Shown here piece by piece: positions 9,582 to 23,260 of a stretch of DNA of 24,125 nucleotides; positions within the stretch are counted from its first letter, which is position 1, and the number at the start of each line of letters is the position of its first letter. The translations under genes were made by a program, and so were the position numbers. Below the pieces are notes generated by a model that was not told the DNA's origin, did no database searches, and was given only the letters and a program-made list of their open reading frames with translations. The stretch comes from a virus. The stretch spans positions 1 to 24,125 of the IMG/VR virus record IMGVR_UViG_3300013138_000476. One strand, written 5' to 3'.

Positions 9582-11438
9582 TCATCCTGTAACATTCTTC
9601 GACTGCCACTCACGAGGCGCCCCATGCATGCGGATGAACTCGTCTCGCGTTGGTTTGTCTTTAAGTTGTTTATAGTCTGACCACATCTCTGGCCACCAGT
9701 CGGAGTATCTCGTGAACCTCTCGACCTTCGCCGGCGCTTTCTCAGTACCACTCAATAGCCCAATGTTCTTCTTAATACCTTGTGTGAACGCGTCCACCAT
9801 GTCGTCATTTGCAGCGAACGGGAACGTGCCCAACTCTTGTTTATAACACTGCGTATAACTCAACCCCTGCTCTTCCCATGCAAAGTCCTCAGAGCTTGAC
9901 AATAAGGCCGCGTCTTTCTCGCAAGGTATGAAGCATCTGCCGTCTCGCTGATATACTGACGCAGTCTGCGCTCGTGAGTATTTGCCGCCCTCAGGCTCAA
10001 CAGGGACAATTGACGGAAAGTCTTTCTCGTCAATCCCGAGTTTCACGCGCCACTTCTTCAGCACCTGCACGATACCAGGTCCGTTGGCCTTGTCCTCGAT
10101 ATACACCGTCTCAATCTCAGGGAAGCGTTTGATCAACGCCACTACTTTGTCGATCGTATCAGGCAGGTCCATCTGCTTTCGGACAAGATAACGTAAGTAC
10201 GAGTTTCCTTGCTTGACACCCGTCAACTCCATAGCAACAAAGTCAGATGTCAACTGGTCCTTGAACGTGGCGTCTATCGACAAATAGATTCTGTCGAACT
10301 TGACAATCTGCTCCTTGGTGCTCCAGTGCTTCTCAATCTCATAGTCTCGCCAGTCGTCAGACCGGAACAAGTTCCCGAGCTCATTCGTCGGACTGCCTTG
10401 GAACATAGCGTTATAGACATGTGCGCCCTCAGACGCAAGATATGACTCTTTGATGATCTCTGCCCAGTGTGTGTCCTTGCCCATCTCAGGGCAAATCCCT
10501 TCACCGACTCGTCTTTTCAGTGGATCCGCCCCGATATTCTCTTCGGTAGCAAGTGCCGCGTAATTGTAGTCTCCGACAATAAAGTCTTTCCGGTGTCTCC
10601 GTAGCCAGCCGATCAAGTCATTTGGCACCCATCTAGTCGCCATGACAATGCAAAGACTGCCAGGGTTGCCGAGTAGACGAGTCTCAACCGTCGACTGATA
10701 AGCCTCGATATTGCCCTCGATCATGACCTCGGATAGAGCGTCCTGCATGTTCTTGATAGGGTCGTCGATAACAACAATGTTGCCGGTTTTACCTGTTACG
10801 ACGCCTCGAATACCAGCGCAAGACATGCCGCCGTTCGTATTTACGTAGAGCTTAGTTGCCATATCGAGCAACATCGTCTCCCACTCGTCGGTCGACTGGA
10901 TGTTGTCGTGTATCTTGACTCGTCCGTGCGTCAGTTTCGGCGCAAACTCTATGAACTTGTCTCTATTACGTCTGCCGAAGCGGGCAGCGAAGTCACTGGC
11001 GTACCCCAGCGTTAGAACACCTAGCCTGGGGTACTTGATGAGGCACCAAGATTGGAACGACTCCGTTATGGTCAACGATTTACCGGTTTGCGGAGGCGCG
11101 CTCAGGAGTATTAAGCCGTAGGCCATACGATGAAAGTCAGGCCTAGACGGGTCATACGGTTTGCTTCTGTCCACTAAAGCCTTAAGCCCAGGTGTCGGAT
11201 TTGGTCCTCTCTCGAACTCTCGCTGCAAGTTCGCAGCCATGCTATAATGATACGGCGTCATTTGGTAGCCGAAGTTTACACATTGTAGGTATGCAGGGTA
11301 CGATTTTATGCATTTGCGTAGCACAAGCTCACCATTTAGGCCTTCCCAATTGATGGTATGGGTTCGAATCTCGGTAATTTCTTGTGCCGTCAACAGTTGA
11401 TAACCATACTCAGCTTGTAATTCTTGTAAGGTTATCAT
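9582..11438 (-). CDS. terL: Terminase large subunit (DNA-packaging ATPase and nuclease)
   Basis: This 618-aa protein has the full TerL layout. The N-terminal ATPase has a Walker A motif APPQTGKS (114-121), Walker B IVVIDDP (221-227) and coupling motif MATRW (266-270). The C-terminal RNase-H-fold nuclease has the expected acidic triad regions: SIDATFKD (Asp389), YIEDKANG (Glu448/Asp449) and NDDMVDAF (Asp545, Asp546, Asp549). It pumps phage DNA into the prohead through the portal and cuts the concatemer. ATG at 11438 overlaps the upstream stop as ATGA, and the portal gene follows after 14 bases. All catalytic residues appear intact. Confidence 0.96.
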   Translation of the reverse strand: MITLQELQAEYGYQLLTAQEITEIRTHTINWEGLNGELVLRKCIKSYPAYLQCVNFGYQMTPYHYSMAANLQREFERGPNPTPGLKALVDRSKPYDPSRPDFHRMAYGLILLSAPPQTGKSLTITESFQSWCLIKYPRLGVLTLGYASDFAARFGRRNRDKFIEFAPKLTHGRVKIHDNIQSTDEWETMLLDMATKLYVNTNGGMSCAGIRGVVTGKTGNIVVIDDPIKNMQDALSEVMIEGNIEAYQSTVETRLLGNPGSLCIVMATRWVPNDLIGWLRRHRKDFIVGDYNYAALATEENIGADPLKRRVGEGICPEMGKDTHWAEIIKESYLASEGAHVYNAMFQGSPTNELGNLFRSDDWRDYEIEKHWSTKEQIVKFDRIYLSIDATFKDQLTSDFVAMELTGVKQGNSYLRYLVRKQMDLPDTIDKVVALIKRFPEIETVYIEDKANGPGIVQVLKKWRVKLGIDEKDFPSIVPVEPEGGKYSRAQTASVYQRDGRCFIPCEKDAALLSSSEDFAWEEQGLSYTQCYKQELGTFPFAANDDMVDAFTQGIKKNIGLLSGTEKAPAKVERFTRYSDWWPEMWSDYKQLKDKPTRDEFIRMHGAPREWQSKNVTG

Positions 11439-11866
11439 TTGTCAGCCTCTTTCTTGGTGGCTCTGTGCTCAGCGATCAATGCCAACTCGTCGTCAGACAA
11501 TTCTTCGAACTGGCCCACACCAATGCTAATCTCTTCTTTGACCTTACCAGCTGTCCGGTCGAGGATGACGTTGAAGGTCTGAGTGTCGAACGCAGCGCGG
11601 ATCAAGTTTGATTCGACAATAAGTTCAGCTTTCATCGGAGACCGAGAAAGCCCAGCATCCTTTAAGCGCTTTTGGACGCTCGAGTAAGCTTCCTTGTAAA
11701 TCTGAGACTCAAGGGTCTCATTACCCGCTTTGTCGACTACTTCCGGAGGAAGTGCCGCATCAGATTGCAGCGATTTCGACAGTAATTGCTTCCATGCCTT
11801 CTTGGCGTACCGCTCGTCACTGAAAAGACTCTTGTGTTCTAACTCCTCACGCGCTTCTTTAGTCAT
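11435..11866 (-). CDS. terS: Probable terminase small subunit
   Basis: The 143-aa reading starts at ATG 11866 behind GGAGGTAAACTT. A longer in-frame start at 11914 would sit on the promoter -10 element and is rejected. The C-terminal half (LDRTAGKVKEEIS, then LSDDELALIAEH) resembles the C-terminal pattern of phage small terminases, and it is the gene directly before terL, coupled by ATGA. TerS proteins form rings that recognise the packaging site and stimulate TerL. A clear N-terminal helix-turn-helix is not obvious by eye. As first gene of the operon it lies downstream of the extended -10 promoter and its operator-like motif. Confidence 0.75.
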   Translation of the reverse strand: MTKEAREELEHKSLFSDERYAKKAWKQLLSKSLQSDAALPPEVVDKAGNETLESQIYKEAYSSVQKRLKDAGLSRSPMKAELIVESNLIRAAFDTQTFNVILDRTAGKVKEEISIGVGQFEELSDDELALIAEHRATKKEADK

Positions 11867-11882
11867 AAGTTTACCTCCTCTC

Positions 11883-11898
11883 CTAGAAATACCTTTCT
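11883..11898. promoter_or_regulatory. Operator-like motif over the late-promoter start site
   Basis: CTAGAAATACCTTTCT has AGAAA/TTTCT inverted half-sites and covers the predicted start of the leftward promoter. It matches 12043-12057 (CTAGAAATACTTTCT) apart from one inserted C. Two copies, one placed on a promoter, suggest a repressor or activator site. The binding protein is unknown. Confidence 0.45.
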
Positions 11899-11900
11899 CT

Positions 11901-11909
11901 ATTATATCA
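11901..11909 (-). promoter_or_regulatory. Extended -10 promoter for the packaging/virion operon
   Basis: On the minus strand the sequence reads TG-A-TATAAT, a perfect -10 hexamer (11906-11901) with the extended TGn motif (11909-11907). No good -35 is present, which fits an extended -10 promoter. The start site would fall near 11894, about 28 bases before the TerS ATG. The motif is strong, but transcription is unproven. Confidence 0.7.
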
Positions 11910-12039
11910 TACACCGAAATGATCAGTTTCCGTCACTTTTTAGGCAAAAATGCCCACGAACAATTAAGACCGATTGACCTAAGGCCTAGATTCCTTCGAT
12001 CACTGCAAACTCACTAGCCTAAATCTCAAAACGGATAGA

Positions 12040-12343: not shown

Positions 12344-12760
12344 ATGGAAAAACTGGTTTTGATTCGCAAAGATCGCGACGTGTACCACGACGGTACGAAA
12401 CTCACCCGCGTCGATCAGTCGACGAAGGGGGCGGGGAACGAAGTCATCAAAATCGAGGGGCTGCCGAACGCGAACGGAAAGAAGTGGGTATCGCTCTCCC
12501 TGCTCGCCGAAGGTGTCAATGAATTGACGTGCACGGCTCGCGACGTCACCCGCCACGCCCAAACCCCCTCACAGAAGTACGTGCTCACCGCGGACGAGCA
12601 GCACATCGTGACCCAACTGCAAGCCCAGATCGACGCGATCGTCAACGCAGCCAAGGCTCGCTTCGTCCCCAAGCCCGACCTCAACGTCGACCCGTCCAAG
12701 ATGACCCCGGAAGAGCGCGAAGCCAAGATCGCCGAGGTCCGGAAGTACTTCGGGCTCTGA
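12344..12760 (+). CDS. Unknown 138-aa protein, GC-rich codon use, first rightward gene
   Basis: ATG at 12344 follows TGGAGG. The protein has a basic, beta-type N-terminus (LVLIRKDRDVYHDGTKLTR) and a helical C-terminus (residues about 85-138) ending MTPEEREAKIAEVRKYFGL. Codons favour C or G at the third position far more than in neighbouring genes, a trait shared only with the gene at 19582. This may reflect high expression or separate origin. It is followed by a strong hairpin at 12771-12806, so it may be expressed mainly alone. I do not recognise the family. Confidence 0.72.
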   Translation: MEKLVLIRKDRDVYHDGTKLTRVDQSTKGAGNEVIKIEGLPNANGKKWVSLSLLAEGVNELTCTARDVTRHAQTPSQKYVLTADEQHIVTQLQAQIDAIVNAAKARFVPKPDLNVDPSKMTPEEREAKIAEVRKYFGL

Positions 12761-13763: not shown

Positions 13764-13809
13764 CCGCCTGCGCTGATAGCGAAATTAACGCTAGAAGGAG
13801 GCAACGAGA

Positions 13810-13908
13810 ATGCGACTCCATACATAGACGGATCGCTCTAAGACCGTGAGCTGCTGCACTTACTAAGCCTCGAGTTTGAAATGAACAACAAAAACCGAGT
13901 TCGTCCAT
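13810..13908 (+). pseudogene. Possible decayed small gene after a good SD
   Basis: AGAAGGAGGCAACGAGA precedes ATG at 13810, but that frame stops after five codons (MRLHT). A neighbouring frame (from 13812) reads ATPYIDGSL, a TAA at 13839, then a protein-like DRELLHLLSLEFEM and stop at 13908. This pattern fits a small gene broken by a frameshift and a nonsense change, or a functional mini-leader. Support is weak. Confidence 0.25.
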
Positions 13909-14031
13909 AACGTCTGCGCCGTTCGGTGCTACGGGTCGAACAAAGTTGCTAGCCATTCGGAAGAGAGATACTTTCGGGGCATGCAGCAAGCAAGGTTATC
14001 GGCTGTCCTTGCAACAAAACTTAATACTATT

Positions 14032-14054
14032 AAGCGTTAAGCTTAGCGCTTTTG
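14032..14054 (+). terminator. Terminator-like hairpin
   Basis: AAGCGTTA-AGCT-TAGCGCTT (14032-14051) forms an 8-bp stem with one G-U pair and a tight loop, followed by a short T run. It could end transcription from the four small genes or of a small RNA from 13900-14050. Confidence 0.55.
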
Positions 14055-14080
14055 TCGGACATATATAGAATATGCTCGAC

Positions 14081-14170
14081 GAGGAGTCAGCCATTTCAGA
14101 TGCTTTTTGGTTCTTGACTCCTCATTTTCGATGAGAATGAGAGCTAAAAGTCCTCGTTCTCATCGAAAAT
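14081..14170. repeat. Two adjacent perfect hairpins
   Basis: GAGGAGTCA (14081-14089) pairs with TGACTCCTC (14115-14123). Directly abutting it, ATTTTCGATGAGAA (14124-14137) pairs with TTCTCATCGAAAAT (14157-14170), a perfect 14-bp stem with a 19-base loop. They may act as a strong terminator, a structured RNA or a replication structure. Confidence 0.65.
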
Positions 14171-14251
14171 GATCGATAGTTCTATCAATAATGAATTCAA
14201 AGTTCTTTTTTAATTTAATTTCCTCTTTTTCAATTATCCTAAAACGAACAA

Positions 14252-14317
14252 AGTTGAAGGCTTTTAGCATCATTAGAAGAGATTTTCTCAAAAATCCGGA
14301 CAGTTGAAGCCTTTTAG
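14252..14317. repeat. 16-bp direct repeat pair
   Basis: AGTTGAAGGCTTTTAG at 14252-14267 recurs at 14302-14317 with one mismatch, 50 bases apart. The pair lies just left of the AT-rich inverted-repeat block and may be an initiator-binding repeat. Confidence 0.55.
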
Positions 14318-14371
14318 GACATAAAAATCGCCATTTTACATCGAAAACGATGTGAAAAATGAGGTCTTTGG

Positions 14372-14551
14372 AATAATTTAATTTCCTTTGTTCACTAAAT
14401 ATCTCTAAGTAATGAAAATATAAAATTAAATTATTATATATAGGTATATATACATAGGTATATAGGTATATGCGTATACTATATATGGATAATTTAATTT
14501 ATATATTTCAATATCATATATAATTTAGTGAACAAACTAAATTAAATTATT
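14372..14551. repeat. AT-rich inverted-repeat block, candidate replication origin
   Basis: Arms of 29 bp at 14372-14400 and 14523-14551 are inverted copies with 27 of 29 matches; the perfect 14-bp core is TTTGTTCACTAAAT and its complement. The 122 bases between are almost all A/T. They contain TAGGTATA at 14441, 14455 and 14463, with a degenerate fourth copy at 14471, and inner AATTTAATTT-type repeats. TAATTTAATTTCCT in the left arm (14374-14387) also occurs at 14211-14224. Inverted repeats, iterons and an easily melted segment together resemble a theta-type origin; function is inferred. Confidence 0.6.
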
Positions 14552-14651
14552 TAATTACGAGCCTTTCGTTTATTAATGGGCTAGAGAGAGAGAGAGCTAT
14601 CAGGTTATAGCACAAACCGAGTATACAGCCAAAAAGGAGGCTATAGAGTAT

Positions 14652-14684
14652 ATGAAGATTGCAAGCAGGAGGTATTCTAAATGA
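14652..14684 (+). CDS. Ten-codon leader ORF
   Basis: ATG at 14652 follows AAAAAGGAGG with a longish spacer and encodes MKIASRRYSK. Its TGA overlaps the next ATG as ATGA, and the internal AGGAGG within its codons serves as the SD of that next gene. This arrangement suggests a translated leader that couples ribosomes into the operon. Confidence 0.45.
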   Translation: MKIASRRYSK

Positions 14685-17367: not shown

Positions 17368-18552
17368 ATGAAGTACAATCTGAATCTGACTCAGGATTAT
17401 GTCAAGCATTGGGGTCTCAAGGAAGCAATTCGAGAGCTCATCGCGAACAACATCGACGAGGGCGGCAGTCTGAGCTATACCGCTAAAACCACGCTGGAGG
17501 GTGAAGAGCGGCTCTCCATGCTCGTCTTCAAGACTGAGAAGGAGTTACCCATCGAGGCGTTCCTTCTTGGTTATTCGGTCAAATCAAACCCGGATGCGAT
17601 CGGGCAGTATGGCGAAGGGCTGAAGTTGGCAATGCTCGTGCTAACCCGAGAACACCAGACCGTTCTCTTCAAGTCCGGCGGGTATTTCTACCGGTTCTTC
17701 TTTGAGATGCCTGAGGGCTTTGGGGTCTCGACGCTTCATCTCGAGAAGCTTGAGATCAATCCGGCCTACGATGATGAAGAGCCCGTTGTCGGTACTGAGA
17801 TCACAGTGTTCGACATCGAGCGGTCTCTTCTCGAGAACTGCTATACGTATTCGCCGCCCAACCAGGTCGTGCCGAAGCGCCGTGGGCTTTTCTGTCAAGG
17901 TCTTCTTGTCGAAGAGGGGTTCTACGTACGCATCAAAAATGTTGAGTATGGTGTGAACCTCGCCCATGCCGTCAAAGGCAATCGTGACAGAAACTATTTC
18001 CCGGACAAAGAGCTCGTCGTGCCGATTCTCGAGAAAACCTTCCAACCTGAAGAGTTACTCAACATCAGTACCAGTTGGTATTCGAGCAGCATCTATGAGC
18101 ACTTCTCGCCGGAGTTCAAGCAAGCGATCGCGTGCAAGTGGTTTCTCAAGAACTCGATTTCGTACACCGAGGAGTCGATCAGTGGCAAGAGAATCTTGAT
18201 TCCATGCTGGTATGGTGAACGGTATTCAAGAAAAGCCGGCTATCTCATCGCGCCGTATTGGGGCGCCGGTTCGTCTCTCATGAATGACGAAGACAAACGA
18301 GTTTTGGCATCGCTCAAGATCGACGACGAAAAGATCAAGACTGACGAAGACTACACAGAACGTCGAAAAGCGTTTACGGAGAAGCTGCTGGGCGAACTTC
18401 GACTTGCAAGTACTCTCACCGAGTTCCTCGAAGCGTTGGTCATCTATGTTCCTGGTCTTGGCCATGCTGCCGAGCGGGCAGAAGTGACTGAAGAGATTAT
18501 CGGCATCGCACGAGCCGTCGAGCGCGAAGAGACTGAGAAGCAGGAGGATTAA
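17368..18552 (+). CDS. GHKL-superfamily (Hsp90/MORC-like) ATPase
   Basis: ATG at 17368 follows AAGGAGGCCAAG; the product is 394 aa. The GHKL N-box is clear at residues 19-31 (EAIRELIANNIDE; Glu23, Asn27, Asp30). The lid/G3-like motif follows at 78-86 (IGQYGEGLK), then GTEITVFD (about 142-149). This is the Bergerat ATP-binding fold of Hsp90, MutL and MORC proteins. The usual D-x-G-x-G loop between N-box and lid is not evident; the matching region reads KELPIEAFLLGYSVKS, so nucleotide binding may be altered. The second half (IPCWYGERYSRKAGYLIAPY) may be an S5-like transducer. A stand-alone GHKL ATPase in a phage operon could act in DNA handling, folding or defence; no partner is evident. Confidence 0.72.
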   Translation: MKYNLNLTQDYVKHWGLKEAIRELIANNIDEGGSLSYTAKTTLEGEERLSMLVFKTEKELPIEAFLLGYSVKSNPDAIGQYGEGLKLAMLVLTREHQTVLFKSGGYFYRFFFEMPEGFGVSTLHLEKLEINPAYDDEEPVVGTEITVFDIERSLLENCYTYSPPNQVVPKRRGLFCQGLLVEEGFYVRIKNVEYGVNLAHAVKGNRDRNYFPDKELVVPILEKTFQPEELLNISTSWYSSSIYEHFSPEFKQAIACKWFLKNSISYTEESISGKRILIPCWYGERYSRKAGYLIAPYWGAGSSLMNDEDKRVLASLKIDDEKIKTDEDYTERRKAFTEKLLGELRLASTLTEFLEALVIYVPGLGHAAERAEVTEEIIGIARAVEREETEKQED

Positions 18553-19200
18553 ATGGCAGAGAAGACTAGACAGCAGTTACTCGACGAACTTGAGGAAGAG
18601 CTGAAGAAGCAGGGGATCGGCAAAACCGGGCGGAAATTGCGCTCGGATGCCGGTCAGCTTCGAGGCAAATATCAGCGCTCCGACAAACCACGTGCAGATG
18701 CTGGTAAACCACGAACTGATTACAACAAAACGCCTATTCATCACAAGAACATATTTACCACGTTTATTGCTGCACACACCAACGAAAATGGCGACGAGCT
18801 CGGCAGAGATTCGAACCTGATATTTCCTCCGCAAGTCACCAACTATTATCGATTGATCTCTGTAGCCGGTAGACTACCATACTATACTTCTGTCAAGCGC
18901 GGGATTCATCCTGAAGCGATGCGGTGGCGTTGGTGGTTTGCGGAGTTTGAGGCGGCAACTGATAAGACCTTGTGGACGAAGAGAATCTGCGACTGGTATT
19001 TCATCAAACCTGAGGACCTTGGTGCTTGGACGTTCGACGAGTGGTCGTGGGCATATTACACCCAGATCGGCGGACACCAGAACCGAGTGCCTGAGCGCAT
19101 CATACTGTCGTATGAAGAGTTTTTGAAGGGCAAATACACCATGCCCACACTAGATGCTGAAGGCGACATCATCTGGCTACGACCAGGAGGAGAGCAGTAA
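18553..19200 (+). CDS. Unknown 215-aa protein with basic N-terminus
   Basis: ATG at 18553 immediately follows the GHKL gene stop, behind GGAGG. Residues 1-60 are highly charged and probably disordered (EELEEELKKQGIGKTGRKLR, then arginine-rich). Residues about 75-205 are rich in Trp and Tyr (WRWWFAEFEA, WTFDEWSWAYY) and probably globular. Zero-base spacing to the GHKL gene suggests the two products work together. No family is recognised. Confidence 0.62.
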   Translation: MAEKTRQQLLDELEEELKKQGIGKTGRKLRSDAGQLRGKYQRSDKPRADAGKPRTDYNKTPIHHKNIFTTFIAAHTNENGDELGRDSNLIFPPQVTNYYRLISVAGRLPYYTSVKRGIHPEAMRWRWWFAEFEAATDKTLWTKRICDWYFIKPEDLGAWTFDEWSWAYYTQIGGHQNRVPERIILSYEEFLKGKYTMPTLDAEGDIIWLRPGGEQ

Positions 19201-20929: not shown

Positions 20930-21143
20930 TGAGAAAGACAAGTGGAACTTCTACTTCCCCAAATTGTTGAAGCTCCAGATGCATCATAAACTGCTGAACT
21001 TGGGGCTACAAAACCGACAGTCGGCTCTATTGCGGGCATTAGTCAGAATGTTTGTAGCTGGTGAAGTGTCCGACGATAGAGTTAAGGCGTTGGTTGAGGA
21101 AGAAACATATATCACTGCAACTGACAAAGTCTCTACTTTGTAG
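20904..21143 (+). CDS. Possible ribbon-helix-helix DNA-binding protein (79 aa)
   Basis: I chose ATG at 20904, with AGAGGA seven bases upstream, over in-frame starts inside the previous gene. Residues 14-50 fit the CopG/MetJ-type spacing: a strand ending in Pro19 (WNFYFP), a helix, then GLQNRQSALLRALVRMF (34-50) like the G-x3-RS-x-LIR second helix. Such proteins bind operators as dimers. This would be a candidate for the operator-like repeats at 11883 and 12040. The match is by pattern only. Confidence 0.5.
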   Translation: MPKKLTEANEKDKWNFYFPKLLKLQMHHKLLNLGLQNRQSALLRALVRMFVAGEVSDDRVKALVEEETYITATDKVSTL

Positions 21144-21150
21144 GCGTATT

Positions 21151-21960
21151 ATGTGTAAAATGCGTATAGTGAGTTTTACGCTAACACAGAATGACAATCC
21201 GTTCAAATGGGCAGAAAGTGACCTAAGCCGATTAACTGATAATCAAGTCGTAGTAGGCTATATACTTAGAACCATTAAGATTGAGACTGAAATAGCCTCA
21301 TTATTGAATCTCTATGTAGTAGACCACGATGATGTAACTGACACTAACAAGATTATAACGCTGCAAGGTTTGAAAAACGTATTCTCGCAATGGCTTGAGT
21401 GTTTAGTGGAAGACCCAAACACTTTTCTGTTTAGGAATCCACCACTAGATAAGTGGTTAGAAACAAAAGAGAATTGGATCAAAAAAATCACTCATAAGTT
21501 ATCGCTGGCTTACAGCAAAGCATACGACGAGTGTTTGAGTTCTTTGTATACCACCATACTTCATTGTTACAATAAAGAAAATGTGTATATGGGGAACTTG
21601 CATTATCTTATTGTTTCTGTTAATAATCGTATCAAGATAGAGCATCGTTATCTACGGAATCGCCTTCAAGGTGAACATCCGAATGCTATTCATTTAGATG
21701 CTGTTCCTAGTGACTTTAACGGTTCACTAGAAGATAGTATCTCATCTCTACATGAAATCATCGGTGGAGCTGAGGATCCGTCGGTTCAACGTGAAAAGAC
21801 TCTAGAAGTATTCAGTGCAATTAAGGCTGATTTGCTCGAAGATTTTTCAGAACGCGAGATCGATCAGATCATTAACTCGCCTGGCTATTTACCGAACACG
21901 TTATATCGTAAATTACTTAAATGGAGAAAGTCGCATAAGCGGGAGGATTATGTCGAATGA
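21151..21960 (+). CDS. Divergent sigma-70-family-like protein (269 aa)
   Basis: The first start after the preceding stop is ATG at 21151 (a second is at 21160); the SD is weak, so coupling is likely. Residues about 123-172 resemble sigma region 2: AYDECLSSLYTTILHCY in place of the D-x-x-D-x-x-Q-E helix, then NLHYLIVSVNNRIKIEHRYL like the W-L-x-x-I-x-x-N...D-x-x-R segment. Residues about 213-262 resemble region 4 (a helix, FSEREIDQII, then NTLYRKLLKWRKSHKR as a recognition helix). The order and spacing fit a small phage sigma factor that redirects host RNA polymerase. A purely structural helical protein remains possible. It overlaps the next gene by ATGA. Confidence 0.5.
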   Translation: MCKMRIVSFTLTQNDNPFKWAESDLSRLTDNQVVVGYILRTIKIETEIASLLNLYVVDHDDVTDTNKIITLQGLKNVFSQWLECLVEDPNTFLFRNPPLDKWLETKENWIKKITHKLSLAYSKAYDECLSSLYTTILHCYNKENVYMGNLHYLIVSVNNRIKIEHRYLRNRLQGEHPNAIHLDAVPSDFNGSLEDSISSLHEIIGGAEDPSVQREKTLEVFSAIKADLLEDFSEREIDQIINSPGYLPNTLYRKLLKWRKSHKREDYVE

Positions 21961-22664
21961 GCAACTATATTAAGCCGTATATACTGTTGTGGCCAGATGC
22001 CGATCAGTATATTTACGAAGGTAAAGTGATAGGTATGATCGTTTCAAAACCTGAGGTTAGTCCATTTGACTTTCTTGCACTGACCATCAACCGAGAAGAT
22101 TTATCGCTGAGAGATTCTATTCGGTTCGCTAAATATGCAAATAGTCTTGGTACGAAAGTTGTATTTGTTCCAACGCTCGATTCAAGACGTGAACCGTGGT
22201 TCTTAACTTCGGTACAGCAACATGAGATTTTGGTTGAAATAGCACAGCATTCGCAAGATGACATTCAGACTGCAGTTCTTGCTGGTCGAGGAGAAATCAA
22301 GTCTCTTGTTGATTACAACTATGCGGCAGTCGCCTATTCATACAACCAGATTCTTGGCAGTACGGTACATCATGCTGAAGCAGTTCTAGCTGAGTTCTTG
22401 AAAGTCATTAGTTTCAAAGAGCCAAAAGATGAACCAGGTCTATGGTGGTTGATGTTATTAGAACCTTGTGAACATTGTCTTAGAAACATGGTTGACGCAA
22501 AAGCTAGTTTGATCACGTATTATAACGATCACAAAGCTAAATGGAACACGCCTGAATATCTTGCGCTCAAAAACGAATTAGTTTGCAAAAGAACTTACAC
22601 GAAAGAGATTATCGTCGAAGAAGTTTTAGTGCCAGAAGCTCTCATTGAGGAGGTCGTCGAATGA
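21957..22664 (+). CDS. Zinc-dependent deaminase-family protein (dCMP/cytidine-type motif)
   Basis: ATG at 21957 overlaps the previous stop (ATGA) behind GGAGG. Residues 139-141 (HAE) and 170-174 (PCEHC) form the cytidine/dCMP deaminase signature: zinc ligands His139, Cys171 and Cys174, with Glu141 as proton shuttle. The flanking LLEPCEHCLRNMVDAKASL is typical of the family. The N-terminal ~130 residues are not deaminase core and match nothing I know. The C-terminus is acidic. The adjacent kinase gene suggests a role in dUMP/dTTP supply, or in making a modified pyrimidine. A nucleic-acid deaminase is an alternative. Confidence 0.75.
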   Translation: MSNYIKPYILLWPDADQYIYEGKVIGMIVSKPEVSPFDFLALTINREDLSLRDSIRFAKYANSLGTKVVFVPTLDSRREPWFLTSVQQHEILVEIAQHSQDDIQTAVLAGRGEIKSLVDYNYAAVAYSYNQILGSTVHHAEAVLAEFLKVISFKEPKDEPGLWWLMLLEPCEHCLRNMVDAKASLITYYNDHKAKWNTPEYLALKNELVCKRTYTKEIIVEEVLVPEALIEEVVE

Positions 22665-23260
22665 TCATTTATCTCGAAGGTGCTGATGCATCTGGCAAGA
22701 GCACGTTGCGTCATAAGATCGTCGAGCAACTGTATGCTACGGTGGATGAGTGGACAGAGTTTGGCATCATTGGAATCGTCGAGAACGGCGAAGAGTTGAT
22801 ACCTACTCGGCCGACTAATCCAAAGCGACTCAATCTCGAAGATTTGTTCCGCAAACTCTGGGAAATGGCTTTCGACTTGAAAACCATTTATATCTGCGAC
22901 AGAGGTCCGATCAGTGACATCATCTATCGGACCTTTGACAAGTTTCAACCAGTCATGACTCTCAATCAATATGTCAACTTCTGGATTAAAGCTCACAGAC
23001 TCATTGTCACGGTCTGGTGTGACTCCGACGTTTCAACTGAAATGCTGCATGAACGTGGCGACAACAATCCAATTGCCGTTGCTAATCATGCGGCTATTCG
23101 TTATTTGTACAAACAGATCATGCCGATCTTCAAACCGGTTAAGTACGACTTCGCTAAAGTGACTGATGGCGGTCAAGGCAAAATCGACATTATTTTGATG
23201 AATCTGTATAACGGTTTGTATCTTGCCACCGAAGAAGCAAAGAAGGCTGAACTGAAATGA
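22661..23260 (+). CDS. P-loop nucleoside-monophosphate kinase-like protein (thymidylate-kinase type)
   Basis: ATG at 22661 overlaps the deaminase stop (ATGA) behind GAGGAGG. The P-loop is GADASGKST (residues 7-15). A DRGPIS motif (80-85) matches the DR-x3-S substrate-base motif of thymidylate and deoxynucleoside kinases. A lid-like ERGDNN and a Tyr-containing helix follow. At 199 aa it is the usual size. It likely phosphorylates a dNMP (perhaps dTMP or a modified one), feeding phage DNA synthesis. The substrate cannot be set from sequence alone. Confidence 0.8.
   Translation: MIIYLEGADASGKSTLRHKIVEQLYATVDEWTEFGIIGIVENGEELIPTRPTNPKRLNLEDLFRKLWEMAFDLKTIYICDRGPISDIIYRTFDKFQPVMTLNQYVNFWIKAHRLIVTVWCDSDVSTEMLHERGDNNPIAVANHAAIRYLYKQIMPIFKPVKYDFAKVTDGGQGKIDIILMNLYNGLYLATEEAKKAELK

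Follow-up and report, generated by a model that had tools for sequence, protein, structure and literature searches.

The block at positions 14372–14551 of the analysed window, a virus record of 24,125 nt, is interpreted as a cis-acting DNA stem-loop element and most likely as the replication origin of the phage, an assignment that we hold with moderate confidence. This role has the best support, since proteins of the Prim-Pol/SF3 helicase-primase type are linked to stem-loop origins and one is encoded in each of the four complete genomes of the family. Few virulent phages have a known replication origin, and the present family has no close isolate relative in the collection searched. The 180-base block, existing in seven natural versions with different arms, offers a direct test of structure versus sequence recognition by Prim-Pol/SF3 initiators; the idea of structure recognition comes from pRN1, and no phage test of it was found in the literature searched.

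The inverted repeat block and its surroundings

In the window the structural genes (portal, terminase) are directed leftward and the early genes rightward. The left outer arm of the block (14372–14400, plus strand), on the side of the small terminase subunit gene (terS), opens with the family-wide outer motif AATAATTW. The right outer arm (14523–14551, minus strand) lies 122 nt away and is complementary to the left one in 27 of the 29 positions (93%). Both the coordinates and the pairing agree with the sequence-only reading made earlier of this DNA, and the arms stand far above the 200 dinucleotide shuffles: the best inverted-repeat score of the gap was 23, a value reached by none of the shuffled sequences (mean 9.8, maximum 13). 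No other inverted repeat with a score of at least 15 (spacer at least 40) was present in the 24-kb window. Folded as single-stranded DNA the block had a free energy of −34.3 kcal/mol, as against −13.1 for the shuffles (sd 2.7; z = −7.9).

The loop (14401–14522) has the 122 nt first given for it, but it is 84% A/T, with 19 of the 122 bases being G or C, and not nearly pure A/T; it is a candidate DNA unwinding element. Just inside the left arm is a CTCTAAGTAATGA motif (14403–14415, plus strand), the core of which is CTAAGTAA in six of the seven phages compared and CTAAATAA in the seventh (G003). The loop also holds a second, inner stem, formed by 14410–14434 (plus strand; AAATTAAATTATT, an inverted copy of the outer motif) paired with 14489–14513 (minus strand; ATAATTTAATTT). 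Three copies of TAGGTATA were found where they had been reported, at 14441–14470 on the plus strand (starts 14441, 14455 and 14463), followed by the degenerate copy TGCGTATA. Further short repeats are AATTTAATTT, which occurs at 14212, 14375 and 14491, and AAATTAAATT, at 14423 and 14539.

The gap between the reading frames flanking the block measures 917 nt (13764–14680), instead of the 890 bases stated before. The same gap includes two further hairpins within 14060–14175, namely GAGGAGTCA...TGACTCCTC and a 20-nt inverted repeat of 95% (14122–14172), both without a match in Rfam and possibly representing a terminator or a small RNA. No Rfam match, tRNA or tmRNA was found in the window.

The small terminase subunit gene (11435–11914, minus strand) ends on its early side at the divergent boundary, which is 1.7–3.0 kb from the element in all the phages. 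On the same side of the element there is a small conserved early gene with no assigned function (12344–12760, plus strand). Downstream of the element, the early gene at 18553–19200 (plus strand) is conserved in five genomes and encodes basic R-x-D-x-G repeats near the N terminus. Its product might, speculatively, be a DNA-binding partner; the predicted structure model of this protein gave no fold match.

Some other early genes were characterised in passing. The region 17368–18552 encodes a 394-aa protein of PHROG 6077 (function unassigned), in which the GHKL-ATPase-like motifs ELIANNID and GQYGEGLK were recognised by eye. The protein of 21061–21960 is conserved in all four complete genomes and had one sub-threshold Pfam match as its only family match; by eye, its C-terminal part resembles a helix-turn-helix or sigma-like region. 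At 21957–23260 there is a nucleotide-metabolism pair, a dCMP-deaminase-like protein followed by a thymidylate-kinase-like one (PHROG 761), and the G001 homologue of the former matches PF00383.

The element in related phages

Scans first run with early-gene proteins as queries found no relatives, and relatives were found by terminase searches, the close ones being approximately 57–87% identical. Four of the relatives were judged complete on the basis of end overlaps of 56–99 nt (G001, 55.6 kb; G002, 54.1 kb; G005, 59.5 kb; G006, 57.5 kb), and all four assemble as circles. The hosts of the family are probably Bacilli, because G006 falls in a Bacilli metagenome bin, with the usual caveat on binning. 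The nearest isolates are distant, with less than 35% identity in the terminase among the best matches listed and approximately 26% in the portal, and among 50,697 phage records no isolate was closer than the latter value in portal identity. No DNA match of the region was found in the phage records either.

Sequence across the site was available for seven phages, namely the window, L032, G003 (L004), G006 (L110), G005 (L036), G001 (L009) and G002 (L030), and each of them carried the same element; close relatives ending short of the site (e.g. L003, L005–L008 and L035) were left out of the count. In all seven it is situated between the same two early-gene neighbourhoods, and the surrounding gene order is common to them. 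The sequence-only reading had named the lack of the block in otherwise colinear relatives as evidence against its proposal, and every covered phage proved to carry the block at the corresponding place. The shared architecture consists of outer arms of approximately 28–53 nt starting with AATAATTA or similar, the motif CTAA(G/A)TAA immediately internal to the arm on the terS side, and an A/T-rich loop. The motif, CTAAGTAA or in G003 CTAAATAA, has the orientation of the early genes in all seven. The arms are 53 nt long in G001 (96%, spacer 183), 32 nt in G002 (97%, spacer 94) and 30 nt in L032 (spacer 139).

In the window, and likewise in G001, G002 and G005 among the complete genomes, the block contains the strongest inverted repeat. 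Phage by phage, the observed inverted-repeat score was attained by 0–5 of 200 shuffles, and the DNA-fold z was negative in all seven (−2.2 to −11.8), being weakest in G003 (−2.2), G005 (−2.4) and G006 (−2.9). A scan of viral contigs by the motif alone gave mostly chance matches among those listed, and these were reused as a control: among the 78 unrelated contigs listed, the inverted-repeat score was at most 14. Ninety-five loci whose terminases are more distant yielded no comparable site (score at most 13), and none was found in the more distant phage G007, which has a homologous helicase (38%) and the record of which may be incomplete.

Additional repeats were observed in two of the genomes. 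G001 carries two identical copies of the 53-nt right arm in direct orientation, 72 nt apart (L009 6917–6969 and 6989–7041). G002, which alone among the seven phages has tandem repeats near the block, carries 19-nt CTATCTGTGTCTATTAGCA-type repeats beside the stem-loop, tandem AGATAAGCAC near terS and a second long inverted repeat with 40-nt arms and a spacer of 136 (L011 183–400, L011 2539–2628, L030 714–929). In the comparison of whole genomes, G002 showed two more long inverted repeats outside the block.

A MAFFT alignment of the seven blocks was poor, the arms being different, and the arms were compared directly instead. When the left arm of each phage was scored against the right arms of all seven, own-arm scores were 20–49, as against a mean of 11.2 and a maximum of 19 between phages. 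At each of the 19 stem positions that follow the ninth, the matched base pairs seen across the seven phages were of two to four kinds. The first 28 stem positions, read on the early strand and counted by eye, included four G-T (G-U) and six A-C mismatches; since G-U mismatches are not enriched over A-C, there is no sign of selection for an early-strand RNA hairpin, and this candidate was left unsupported.

Replication proteins and the possible roles of the element

The Prim-Pol/D5/SF3 helicase-primase is encoded in all four complete genomes, the proteins being 48–87% identical to that of G006. The G001 protein matches Prim-Pol (only at the Pfam cut-off), D5_N and DUF5906, and is encoded together with an Enc34-type single-strand-binding protein (SSB) and an SNF2-type helicase. 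Such an SSB and SNF2-type helicase belong to the replication proteins of the complete genomes in general, along with a DNA polymerase (identified in G002), and a family match indicated a ligase in G002. The helicase-primase also matches the PHROG DNA primase family and PDB entry 7ola (E = 5e-20), which we take to be the SaPI5 helicase. Examined for the C-terminal winged-helix DNA-binding domain of pRN1-type initiators, its structure model was of low confidence (mean pLDDT 45), with residues 597–648 predicted to be helical. The helicase gene is located approximately 14–20 kb from the element in the complete genomes, and the window record is without it. The 700 nt downstream of that gene showed no strong stem-loop.

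Control of transcription of the early operon is the main rival, because the element is always upstream of early genes, and we regard it as a possible but rather unlikely role. Promoter or operator function would then reside in the A/T-rich centre, and the arms would be paired binding sites or would form the fold of an RNA leader. Such a role agrees with the constant position of the element, flanked by early genes of one orientation and shortly ahead of a gene that has a ribosome-binding site. However, a consensus scan, which does not cover a promoter type of the phage's own, detected no sigma-70-like promoter at the block, and promoters do not need arms of 28–53 nt whose complementarity outlives their sequence. 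Neither does the early strand show the excess of G-U mismatches (counted by eye) that a leader fold might leave.

It appears improbable that the element serves in packaging, recombination or segregation, as a pac-like or centromere-like site bound in hairpin form or as a pair of sites. The small terminase gene is 1.7–3.0 kb away in all seven phages and the circular genome assemblies fit headful packaging, but the element belongs to the other transcription unit and is neither in nor beside terS, where pac sites are usually located. As to segregation, no partition genes were recognised in an unsystematic inspection.

Still less probable is a mobile palindrome or a functionless, accumulated hairpin of the MITE type. 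The arms do vary between the phages and G002 has other long inverted repeats, but the gene position is fixed and the inner motif is common to phages with terminase identities down to approximately 57–59%. The short segment bounded by inverted arms also suggested a switch that inverts between recombination sites, but this was rejected as scarcely credible, since no tyrosine or serine recombinase was found in G001, G002, G005 or contig C1 of G006, and the position of CTAAGTAA next to the arm on the terS side is constant among the seven phages, with no second orientation seen.

For the replication origin, the conserved element and the helicase-primase support the role first proposed, but the TAGGTATA copies regarded as iterons do not belong to the evidence: the blocks of the relatives do not share them, and no iteron array is common to the seven blocks. 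Cumulative GC skew gave a mixed picture. In the window the skew turns nearby, but in the two complete relatives profiled, G001 and G002, it tracks gene direction and has its minimum at the divergent promoter, approximately 2–3 kb from the block. A shift of third-codon skew at the block was seen in the window only. The skew of the relatives counts against an origin at the block, as do the distance from the helicase gene, the negative result in G007 despite its helicase, and the two further long inverted repeats of G002.

We infer that hairpin extrusion, initiator binding and priming take place at the block. The arms would extrude as hairpins under negative supercoiling or after melting of the A/T-rich loop, and the phage's own Prim-Pol/D5/SF3 helicase-primase would assemble there, with CTAAGTAA and the outer AATAATTA boxes as possible guides. 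It would open the loop, prime on the exposed strands and load the phage DNA polymerase and the single-strand-binding protein.

The helicases of G001 and G006 are 87% identical yet the inner arms of these phages differ, which makes a one-to-one recognition code between arms and helicase unlikely. The same comparison hints at an origin read by its shape. We consider it a tentative and fairly unlikely proposition that the element represents a class of phage origins read mainly as DNA shape, in which only the outer boxes and CTAAGTAA would be read as sequence, the arms would drift while retaining their pairing, and the helicase-primase gene would be distant.

Comparison with known origins

The earlier statement that the block matches no known origin was too strong, as there is a close analogue in the stem-loop origin of the pRN1 type. 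Replication of pRN1 requires a stem-loop of 100 nt whose structure is conserved and whose sequence is not, and a damaging mutation of the stem was rescued by a compensating change that restored the symmetry (PMC4234260). The pRN1 protein unites the same two activities, primase and SF3 helicase, and a similar stem-loop origin has been proposed for phages with the same protein type, e.g. BIP-1 (PMC4234260). The present element resembles those of pRN1 and BIP-1 in having a long stem and a large loop in non-coding DNA, a structure kept with varying sequence, and an encoded primase/SF3 helicase. The dimensions differ: pRN1 has a 21-nt stem and a 58-nt loop (predicted at 75 °C), whereas the stems here are approximately 28–53 nt and the A/T-rich loop has a conserved motif. 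The function of the pRN1 stem-loop has been tested, while that of the phage element is proposed from sequence.

The helicase belongs by sequence to the same family as those of the SaPI and SCCmec elements (D5_N, Pfam; PDB match 7ola), and SaPI5 Rep bears a D5_N type domain (PMC7581432). The origins of SaPI and SCCmec consist of short iterons in direct repeat that closely follow rep, whereas no conserved iterons were found here, and in SCCmec the inverted repeats are dispensable for binding (PMC7581432). In both pRN1 and the SaPIs the origin adjoins the initiator gene (PMC4234260, PMC7581432).

Herpes simplex OriS likewise has inverted boxes around an A/T-rich spacer and a further inverted copy allowing an alternative hairpin (PMC12543377). 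The likeness is only architectural, as the virus is unrelated, its initiator is an SF2 helicase and its boxes are of fixed sequence (PMC12543377).

We propose that the element works like a pRN1-type origin in its mechanism without being a strict member of that type, because the pRN1 stem-loop is directly 3' of the replication gene and the present one approximately 14–20 kb away from that of the helicase. Stem-loop origins used by Prim-Pol/SF3 initiators have been described or proposed before; new here are the phage family itself, the remote position of the element, and outer boxes and a motif that are conserved.
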